Below are positions 2,922 to 5,567 of a DNA stretch of 5,567 bases, piece after piece. The number at the start of each line of letters is the position of its first letter. Position 1 is the first letter of the stretch. The notes under the pieces were generated by a model. The model had not been told where the DNA came from, ran no database searches, and was given only the letters and a program-made list of their open reading frames with translations. The stretch is taken from contig JALGZO010000588.1 of assembly GCA_025774865.1 (NCBI GenBank), positions 1 through 5,567 of the forward strand, read 5' to 3'. This DNA comes from a bacterium (GTDB taxonomy: Bacteria; ARS69). Both the position numbers and the translations under genes were made by a program.

Positions 2922-4331
2922 ATGACCCCACGCCAGGATTCCTTGCGCAAGATCCCGTCCGTCGACCAGGTTCTGGCGGCGCCCGCGGTCGTCGACCTGC
3001 TCCGGACCGAGCCGCGGCCCGTCGTGGTCCGCGCGATACGCGCGTGTCTGGATGAGATCCGGACGGAGGTCCGCGGCTCCAAGGACAATGGTCGACCGGT
3101 GCCGGGCGCATCCGACGTCGCCGCCCAGGTGGCGCGCTCGGTCCGGTTGGAAGTTCGAGGGCTGCGCCGAGTGTTGAACGCGACCGGAGTGGTGCTCCAT
3201 ACGAACCTCGGTCGAGCGAGGCTCGCGGACTCCGCCGTCCGCGCCGTCCAGGAAGTCGCGAGCGGGGCGTGCGACCTGGAGTTCGACCTCGTGACCGGCA
3301 AGCGCTCCTCCCGAGGCCGCATCCTGGAACGCCGGCTCGTGCAGATGACCGACGCCGAAGGGGCGCTCGTCGTGAACAACAACGCCGGGGCGCTCGTACT
3401 CGCCCTCAATGAGCTGGCCCGCGGGCGAGAGGTGATCGTGTCGCGGGGCGAGCTCGTCGAAATCGGCGGCTCCTTCCGCCTCCCGGACGTGATGGAGCGC
3501 ACTGGAGCACGTCTCCGGGAGGTAGGGACGACGAACCGGACCCACGTGCGGGACTACGAGAACGCGATCGGCCCGGAAACGGCGATGCTGCTCAAGGTGC
3601 ACCGATCGAACTTCCGTCAGGAGGGCTTCGTGACCGAGCCGACGCTCGCCGAGCTCGTCGAGCTCGGACGCCGGTATGACCTGACCGTGTTGCACGACCT
3701 GGGCTCGGGCGCGCTCTGGGAGATGCCGCCGCTGCGGGACGAGCCGCTCGTCCCGGGCAGTCTGGCGTCGGGGGTGGATCTCGTGACGTTCTCCGGCGAC
3801 AAGTTGCTCGGCGGTCCTCAGGCCGGAATCCTGCTCGGCCGGGAGCCGCTGATCGAGCGACTCCGGAAGAATCCGCTGGCCCGAGCGCTAAGAATCGACA
3901 AGTTCACCATCGCAGCCCTTGCAGCCACGCTGGATCTCTTGGAAGATCCCGACAGGGCGCAGACCGATGTCCCGGTTCTCCGGGCGCTCGGGGCGGAACC
4001 CGCCGAGCTCGCGGGGCGTGCCGAGGCGATGGTCCGTGCTCTGGACGGATGTCCTGCGCTCCGGGCCCGGACGACCGAGGCGCTGAGCGAGGTCGGGGGA
4101 GGCGCTGTTCCGGCGGAAGGGCTGCCCACTACGGTCGTCGCGCTGTCGCACGAGACCCTCTCTCCGGACGAGCTGGCGGGCGAGCTGCGCGCCGCCGAGC
4201 CACCGGTGATCGGAAGGATCGCGGGGGGAGAACTCTTGCTCGATCCTCGAAGTCTCGATCGGGCGGAAGACGAAGAGTGCGTTGAGGCCATCCGGGCACG
4301 TCTCGCCGGGTCGGCAGGGGGAGGAAGATGA
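2922..4331 (+). CDS. selA: L-seryl-tRNA(Sec) selenium transferase
   Basis: SelA is a cytosolic PLP enzyme, a homodecamer in bacteria. It replaces the serine hydroxyl on Ser-tRNA(Sec) with selenium from selenophosphate, giving Sec-tRNA(Sec) for UGA decoding. The product has 469 residues, against 463 in E. coli. The N-terminal domain begins with the family pattern LRKIPSVDQVL, which supports ATG 2922 although its ribosome binding site is weak; the open frame further left lies inside the preceding gene. Family blocks follow: NATGVVLHTNLGRA (residues 86-99), then VVNNNAGALVLAL, SRGELVEIGGSFRLPDVM, VGTTNRTHVRDY, LLKVHRSNF and LHDLGSGAL. The PLP-binding lysine is K294 in FSGDKLLGGPQAG. The C-terminal GRIAGGELLLDPRSL is also typical. 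No catalytic block is missing. The gene implies selenoprotein synthesis, but selB, selC (tRNA-Sec) and selD are not in the window. It overlaps the next gene by four bases (ATGA), so the two are likely cotranscribed and translationally coupled. Confidence 0.97.
   Translation: MTPRQDSLRKIPSVDQVLAAPAVVDLLRTEPRPVVVRAIRACLDEIRTEVRGSKDNGRPVPGASDVAAQVARSVRLEVRGLRRVLNATGVVLHTNLGRARLADSAVRAVQEVASGACDLEFDLVTGKRSSRGRILERRLVQMTDAEGALVVNNNAGALVLALNELARGREVIVSRGELVEIGGSFRLPDVMERTGARLREVGTTNRTHVRDYENAIGPETAMLLKVHRSNFRQEGFVTEPTLAELVELGRRYDLTVLHDLGSGALWEMPPLRDEPLVPGSLASGVDLVTFSGDKLLGGPQAGILLGREPLIERLRKNPLARALRIDKFTIAALAATLDLLEDPDRAQTDVPVLRALGAEPAELAGRAEAMVRALDGCPALRARTTEALSEVGGGAVPAEGLPTTVVALSHETLSPDELAGELRAAEPPVIGRIAGGELLLDPRSLDRAEDEECVEAIRARLAGSAGGGR
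4316..4324 (+). promoter_or_regulatory. Ribosome binding site inside the end of selA
   Basis: A purine-rich AGGGGGAGG run inside the last selA codons precedes the ATG at 4328, three bases from the GGAGG core, or six if the AGGGGG part is used. It supports ATG 4328 as the start and direct initiation in addition to coupling with selA. Confidence 0.6.
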
Positions 4332-5567
4332 CGACGGGAGCCATAGCCGAGTTCGGATCTCCGGAAGACGCTGCGCTCGAACTCGAGCTTCCACTTTTGG
4401 GCATGGTGCGGTCCCCGGCCGACGAGAGCGGCCCGATCGCGCCGTCGTATCCGGCCGACGAGCGGACGCGTCGAGAGTACCACCGCGCCGCCGACCGGAT
4501 TCTCTTGTCGCCGCTGTCAGCCAAGGGCTCCGTCGGTCTGATCGGCGACGTCTCTTCGTTGCGCCGCGCCCGGATCGCGGCGGATCTCTCGACGTTGCTC
4601 GCCGCCGAGAAGACGTCGATCCTCGTCGACGCGGACCTCGGCGGGGCGCACCTGTCATTCGATGAGCGTGGCCGCTCCCAGGAAGGGCTCGTGGACGTGC
4701 TCCGTTACGGAGTTCGGTCGCCTCGCGTCGTCGCGCCTACCCAGGCTCCCGGACTGAATCTGCTGCCGGTGGGGTCGGGCACCGTGGACTTTGCCAGCAC
4801 GTACGGCTCGGACTCCACCGCATCGTTGTTCGCGGAACTCCGTCGAACGGGCGATCTCGTGATCGTGAACGGCCCCGACCTCTCGGATCTGGATACCGCC
4901 CGCCCGTTCCTCGCCGAGGTCGCGGGCTGGGTTCTCGTACACGATTTCGGGGCGTCGGTCGCGGCCCGCACCCGCGAGCTCAAGGAGATCTTCGGGGCGG
5001 ATGCCTGTGTCGGAGTGCTCGCGGTCGTGGTGGAGAGGCCGCCGTCAGAGGAGCTGCACGCGCCGTCCAGCTCCGAGTTCCTGCCGCCGTCATTGCCTCC
5101 GCCGATCGAGACGACCATCGAGAAGGAACAGGTCTACGAGGACGTTCCGTCCTACCGGGATGCGTTCGAGGCGGCACCGCCCGAGGAAGCCTCCCCCGTC
5201 CGGGACTTCCTCGAAGAAGCCCCCACCGGGGAGGTCCCGGCCGAGGACGTCGGGTCCCAGGGCCAGCCTCTGGAAGAGGATGCTTCCCACGCGGAGGAGA
5301 GCCCCGGCGGGCCGTTCGAGCCCATCCGCGCGGTGCCTCCCGCGCCCGCCGAGCCGCCGGAGCTCGAGCCGCCCGAGGAGCTCGAGCCGCCGGAATTCAA
5401 GCCGCCGGAGTTCGAGCCGCCGGAATTCAAGCCGCCGGCGGCGCTCGAGCCGTCGGAGTTCAAGCCGCCGGAATTCAAGCCGCCGGAGGCGCTCGAGCCG
5501 TCGGAGTTCAAGCCGCCGGAATTCAAGTCGCCGGAGGCGCTCGAGCCGCCGGAGTTCAAGCCGCCGG
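4328..5567 (+). CDS. Degenerate ParA/MinD- or tyrosine-kinase-like P-loop protein with Pro/Glu-rich repeat tail, 3' incomplete
   Basis: The frame is open from ATG 4328 to the right edge without a stop, giving 413 visible residues. Residues 1-65 are a polar leader. Residues 66-235 follow the order of a ParA/MinD or BY-kinase (CpsD/CapB) domain. SVGLIGDVSSLRRARIAADL (69-88) sits where Walker A should be, but lacks GKS/T. ILVDADLGG (98-106) matches Walker A' and keeps both aspartates. EGLVDVLRYG and LNLLPVGS match the GL.DVL and LLPAG blocks that follow in CpsD-like proteins. LVIVNGPD (177-184) sits where Walker B (IIIDTPP) should be, with Asn for Asp. WVLVHDFGASVAA corresponds to the next core strand. 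ATP hydrolysis or kinase activity is therefore doubtful, and a binding or scaffold role is more likely (inference). Residues 236-340 form an acidic, proline-rich linker. From about 341 a repeat tail of EPPEFKPPE-type units runs off the window. No membrane segment is visible. Start and stop overlap with selA (ATGA). The exact family and function are not known to me. Confidence 0.7.
   Translation, partial: MTTGAIAEFGSPEDAALELELPLLGMVRSPADESGPIAPSYPADERTRREYHRAADRILLSPLSAKGSVGLIGDVSSLRRARIAADLSTLLAAEKTSILVDADLGGAHLSFDERGRSQEGLVDVLRYGVRSPRVVAPTQAPGLNLLPVGSGTVDFASTYGSDSTASLFAELRRTGDLVIVNGPDLSDLDTARPFLAEVAGWVLVHDFGASVAARTRELKEIFGADACVGVLAVVVERPPSEELHAPSSSEFLPPSLPPPIETTIEKEQVYEDVPSYRDAFEAAPPEEASPVRDFLEEAPTGEVPAEDVGSQGQPLEEDASHAEESPGGPFEPIRAVPPAPAEPPELEPPEELEPPEFKPPEFEPPEFKPPAALEPSEFKPPEFKPPEALEPSEFKPPEFKSPEALEPPEFKPP
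5342..5567 (+). repeat. In-frame tandem repeat, 48-base (16-residue) units, continuing past the window
   Basis: The best-preserved units start at the GCG codons at 5441, 5489 and 5537, exactly 48 bases apart; the last is cut by the edge. Each encodes a pattern like ALEPSEFKPPEFKPPE. Units 1 and 2 differ by one base (CCG to TCG at 5528-5530), and the visible part of unit 3 differs from unit 1 also by one base (5549-5551). A diverged copy occupies 5393-5440, and looser PPELEPPE-type sequence precedes it from 5342. Each 16-residue unit is itself built of five- or six-residue pieces, one acidic (ALEP.E) and two basic (FKPPE). The near identity, including synonymous choices (GAG-TTC then GAA-TTC), points to recent duplication by slippage or unequal recombination. 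A proline-rich, charged, extended spacer is the likely product. Confidence 0.9.

Follow-up and report, generated by a model that had tools for sequence, protein, structure and literature searches.

Proteins with a degenerate BY-kinase-like domain, a transmembrane helix and a SPOR domain form a family whose genes lie between selA and smc

A protein that keeps the block order of a P-loop ATPase while both of its nucleotide-binding motifs are eroded can be a single damaged copy or a member of a conserved family, and gene X, which stands at the right edge of the window analysed here (a stretch of 5,567 bp that is the complete contig C592, JALGZO010000588.1, of assembly GCA_025774865.1), raises the question of which of the two applies, and of what the cut-off remainder of the protein would reveal about its role.

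The locus and the missing half of gene X

Gene X (4328–5567, forward strand) begins with an ATG at 4328 that overlaps the selA stop codon as ATGA, and its frame stays open through base 5567, over 413 codons. The selA gene itself (L-seryl-tRNA(Sec) selenium transferase; 2922–4331, forward strand) is identified by Pfam matches to SelA (E 4.5e-135) and Se-cys_synth_N (E 3e-11). Upstream of it lie a gene of the Sodium:neurotransmitter symporter family (381–1730), which is found in the same place in genomes G002 and G003, and a gene for a periplasmic-binding-protein-like protein (Peripla_BP_6; 1730–2851). The N-terminal domain of gene X is followed by an acidic, proline-rich linker (5048–5567, forward strand; 23% Glu, 25% Pro) with EFKPP-type tandem repeats, and the contig breaks within the 48-bp tandem repeat that codes for them (5400–5567), which is a usual site for an assembly break. 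As the window is a whole contig, one of 785 in its genome, there is no DNA past the right edge.

The window's phylum was sampled by five genomes of one family, among which are two complete orthologues of gene X: P0002 (657 aa, 60% identity over the domain; genome G002, JALGZR010000014.1) and P0003 (431 aa, 46% identity; genome G003). In both, the acidic proline-rich linker leads to one hydrophobic helix and then to a C-terminal SPOR domain (PF05036; Pfam E-values of 1.6e-10 and 2.5e-9), and in G001 and G004, of the same phylum, the contigs start in the same linker, carry the SPOR domain according to Pfam, and continue with smc. The window's gene X is thus cut ahead of its TM-SPOR part. The sequence-only reading had described an acidic linker with a charged, proline-rich repeat tail and had looked past the right edge for the rest of the protein; the linker stands, the free C-terminal tail has to be given up, as in the orthologues this stretch connects to a TM helix, beyond which a SPOR domain follows in the periplasm, and although the contig ends at the edge, the orthologues show how the gene continues, through TM helix and SPOR domain to smc. 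A TM helix is predicted in P0002, P0003 and the scanned members of other phyla. The SPOR domain scores above the Pfam cut-off in the orthologues and in members of all four phyla considered below; its Ser and Arg columns are invariant (49/49 each) and Trp is kept in 47/49. At one position, where Gln is the usual residue of SPOR domains, 33 of the 49 have His.

A search of the rest of the window's assembly recovered neither the TM-SPOR half of gene X nor smc, which would be expected if both fall into the assembly gap. Contig C710 matched only 55 bp of the linker and can be rejected as the continuation, and the SPOR matches of the same genome proved to be other proteins, namely DamX-like or TM-SPOR ORFs on C151 and C109 and a short SPOR protein on C591. 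The DamX-like ORFs have both a TM helix and a SPOR domain (C151: L036, 1–1278, forward strand; C109: L039, 2511–3248, reverse strand). The N-terminal domain of the L036 ORF has an intact GSGKS P-loop, which suggests that one organism combines TM-SPOR with two distinct P-loop classes.

Motif loss and conservation in four phyla

The block order of a ParA/MinD or CpsD-type domain that had been recognized in the window is present in the translation of gene X, with ILVDADL, EGLVDVLRYG, LNLLPVGS and LVIVNGPD all in place, and the translation likewise bears out both of the substitutions that had been noticed. At the P-loop position stands GDVSSLRRARIA, with the degenerate loop GDVSSLRRA (4544–4570) replacing GKS/T by Arg80 in the Lys column and Ala81 in the Ser/Thr column, and the Walker B segment LVIVNGPD (4856–4879) has Asn181 for Asp. 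Gene X therefore departs from active BY-kinases (CpsD/CapB/Wzc) in Walker A (GxxGEGK[ST]) and in Walker B (hhhhD), and agrees with them in Walker A' (hhhDxD), where Asp101 and Asp103 of ILVDADL (4619–4639) are retained. Three further segments mark the domain: SPEDAALELELPLLG (4358–4402), which in an alignment to CapAB resembles the juxtamembrane segment of BY-kinases and contains invariant residues, the family-defining block EGLVDVLRYGVRS (4682–4720), and the LLPVGSG motif (4760–4780), all of these features lying on the forward strand.

Pfam gave no significant match to the window's N-domain, and the NCBIfam BY-kinase models matched the single gene X protein with E-values of about 1e-6, far below the model cut-offs, so that the domain is covered by no Pfam or NCBIfam family, in line with the earlier statement that no named family has this architecture. 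A profile of the family matched the solved structures of CapB1 (5.8e-8), VpsO (1.1e-7), BceF (1.6e-6) and MinD (3.2e-6). Because of the NCBIfam matches and the match to solved CapB, the likeness to the P-loop class exceeds chance, and there is good sequence evidence that the N-domain belongs to the SIMIBI class with BY-kinases as its nearest relatives. AlphaFold models from alignments of two or three sequences reached a pLDDT of only 38–39 in both runs, and the class assignment thus rests on the sequence profiles.

Scans of sequence collections with the single gene X protein yielded no relatives, nor did scans of viral sequences, and when genome contigs were scanned with three orthologues, the G002 copy and one Wzz-type protein from Rhodococcus, its P-loop degenerate, were the only matches. 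The latter, from Rhodococcus aetherivorans (L047, 7392–8729), is fused to a BY-kinase domain in which Walker A (SPDPRCDTAG) and Walker B (VVIGTPA) are both degenerate. When the genes upstream of smc were read in other phyla, a TM-SPOR gene was present in one further phylum, where 34 of 80 genomes matched, with proteins of about 480–640 aa whose N-domains align with that of the window. A three-sequence profile from the window's phylum recovered the bridging member L109 (E 2.5e-15) and L108 (E 3.3e-12; E-values for a small set), and a 26-sequence profile found members in two more phyla. In total, the family comprises 51 N-domains from four GTDB phyla, two of them (L148, L159) from one low-completeness genome, G483; 35 BY-kinase-like domains from the same searches served as controls.

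The motif loss is a conserved trait of this family. The Walker A Lys, present in 30 of the 35 controls, occurs in none of the 51 members, and the same holds for the Walker B Asp (0/51 vs 35/35), whereas the first Asp of Walker A' is kept in family and controls alike (50/51 vs 33/35). The P-loop Gly pattern is mostly lost. What is kept instead is the block EG..D....G.S, in which G120 and D123 are found in 51/51 and G128 in 50/51 members, the latter compared with 10/35 controls, while column 130 is Ser in 47/51 and Arg in the window's phylum; in the LLPVGSG motif, G149 is invariant (51/51) and S150 occurs in 50/51. The sequence-only reading had proposed a pseudo-ATPase maintained as a binding module and had left it to a collection of homologues whether the loss of the GKS/T loop is conserved; across four phyla it is, and the control BY-kinases retain the residues concerned. 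Five controls lack the P-loop Lys and all five keep the Walker B Asp, which shows that partial P-loop decay occurs in other BY-kinase-like proteins as well. Examples of a replaced P-loop Lys with Walker B Asp and without a SPOR domain are L142, L143, L156 and L161 (EGEGTS/T, VGTGTS, QGEGAS).

The place of gene X between selA and smc

In tblastn searches, smc was found in 47 of 53 family loci and selA in 43 of 53, and both were absent from all 35 control loci. Most of the family loci without selA or smc stop short there, at the end of a contig or of the stretch retrieved, and the counts leave out the loci of P0002 and P0003, both of which have selA and smc as neighbours. In two orthologues from the window's phylum, gene X and smc overlap as ATGA. 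Adjacency to smc guided the search only for the first members (G001, G004 and G029) beyond the window's three copies; the other members were found by protein similarity, so that their position next to smc is independent evidence. In G010, from another phylum (L053, about 1–1474), smc follows selA immediately and gene X is absent, which indicates either that gene X entered an older selA–smc pair or that it disappeared from one. A literature search did not find the architecture or the selA–X–smc order described. The parts of gene X are of known kinds, and it is their combination and the operon that appear to be new.

Proposed role at the septum and competing explanations

We consider it probable (roughly 60%) that gene X encodes a membrane-anchored pseudo-BY-kinase scaffold that is recruited to the septum by its SPOR domain and binds a partner through its cytoplasmic domain, with no nucleotide cycle involved. 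The product would be a single-pass inner-membrane protein with a cytoplasmic SIMIBI-class N-domain (CpsD/CapB/MinD-like), a flexible acidic linker, a TM helix and, in the periplasm, a SPOR domain. Binding to peptide-free (denuded) glycan is how SPOR domains bring proteins to the septum (PMC6895207), and a septal position is therefore what we infer for gene X: its SPOR domain would bind the denuded glycan that amidases produce as the septum closes, and the protein would become concentrated there. The conserved face of the dead domain, made up of EG..D....G.S, the Walker A' Asp and the GS motif, could then act as a nucleotide-independent docking platform. A scaffold role of this kind has been proposed for the BY pseudokinase EcpK (PMC12004946), and contact of a related domain with the SMC complex is known from the MinD homologue Rv1708, which binds ScpA and ParB (PMC10482377). 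The fixed position between selA and smc favours SMC/chromosome segregation or the divisome machinery as the cytoplasmic partner and, from gene order alone, SMC or another chromosome or division factor is the likeliest one. A point against the SMC link is that selA, which has no obvious division role, shares the locus, and the conserved order can alternatively be caused by co-expression only.

Each of the systems with which gene X can be compared shares part of its features. CapB, CpsD and Wzc are the nearest profiles and have Walker A' and the LP.LG segment in common with it; unlike these kinases, gene X is devoid of the Walker A Lys and the Walker B Asp, and P0002 and P0003 end with the SPOR domain and a short charged stretch without Tyr, not with the Tyr-rich C-terminal cluster of active BY-kinases. 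The ParA/MinD family, including the MinD-like Rv1708/MSMEG_3743, belongs to the same SIMIBI class as judged from the profile match to MinD, but retains the deviant Walker A and has no TM-SPOR part. DamX, FtsN and DedD combine an inner-membrane TM helix with a periplasmic SPOR domain, as the gene X family does, and a DamX-like P-loop–TM–SPOR ORF is encoded in the window's genome as well; what sets gene X apart is a dead SIMIBI domain on the cytoplasmic side and the selA–X–smc operon. The atypical MinD-like proteins TadZ and CpaE are relatives with degenerate P-loops that serve positioning, and in contrast to gene X they belong to Tad-pilus clusters and have no SPOR domain.

Could the domain nevertheless be an atypical active NTPase that binds ATP through a displaced basic residue and switches states with the nucleotide? 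The retained Walker A' Asp and an Arg that 41 of 51 members have in the helix following the P-loop would fit this, as would the precedents of TadZ and MSMEG_3743, and the fact that TadZ compensates for the missing P-loop Lys and still uses ATP (PMC10482377) calls for caution in excluding ATP binding by gene X. However, no basic residue is common to all members, with the window itself having Glu94 at the helix position, and with the Walker B Asp lost throughout and the Gly pattern mostly gone, we regard an active NTPase as unlikely. Going by its residues, ATP binding by the N-domain is unlikely and ATP hydrolysis in the known way should be impossible, and the domain most likely provides a docking surface. 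That this surface is dispensable, and that gene X is no more than an FtsN/DedD-like division protein relying solely on its TM helix and SPOR domain, would agree with the identity of only about 20% between N-domains across phyla, and variation in the cytoplasmic part is known among SPOR proteins; but across the four phyla several columns do not vary, and in the window's phylum three genera share an identical long block around EGLVDVLRYGVRSPRVV, and as a relic would lose such features, we think this explanation quite improbable.

More improbable still is an EcpK/HfsB-type polysaccharide pseudokinase acting on a Wzz-like co-polymerase, with the SPOR domain only positioning exopolysaccharide synthesis. 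The profiles nearest to gene X are BY-kinases, and EcpK of Myxococcus xanthus, named alongside HfsB of Caulobacter, is a CapB/Wzc-like domain without catalytic motifs, as is gene X judging from motif loss and sequence profiles, and a proposed scaffold (PMC12004946). But EcpK is encoded in an exopolysaccharide cluster and has a Wzz-like partner, whereas gene X is joined to TM-SPOR and its neighbours in the loci read are selA and smc, not a PCP/Wzz cluster or other polysaccharide genes, and canonical BY-kinases exist separately in the same phylum (L016, L027, L028). A single mutated copy, a pseudogene or an assembly artefact might be suspected in a fragmented MAG with 8.3% contamination and a break inside a repeat, yet the same motif loss and gene order recur across the family of 51, whose frames are open and whose operons are tightly spaced, and this suspicion is refuted.

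The family described here is unannotated and is conserved in at least four little-known phyla, known here from mostly fragmented genomes, and it fuses a dead ParA/BY-kinase-class domain to a septum-targeting SPOR domain in an operon locked with smc. Gene X may help to tie cell division to chromosome handling; if so, the family would connect the constriction of the cell wall physically to chromosome segregation, in a way that can be tested, and BY pseudokinases would have a role outside polysaccharide export as well. Still more tentatively, gene X might be a dedicated trans-envelope coupler that reads septal peptidoglycan via SPOR and relays the position to SMC-driven segregation through its nucleotide-independent pseudo-SIMIBI domain, which, if true, would link wall splitting directly to chromosome handling.

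In the phylogenetic tree, the whole family lies on one side of a branch that separates it from the BY-kinases with a support of 99/83. The first branch on the BY-kinase side is L115, a distant homologue from another phylum that combines an intact NEGKST P-loop and the Walker B Asp with TM helix and SPOR domain, and whose locus lacks smc. L115 may represent an enzyme-like precursor of the TM-SPOR architecture and hints at how such a scaffold may have arisen from an enzyme. In L131, the sequence AGNGVR is triplicated exactly at the position of the dead P-loop.
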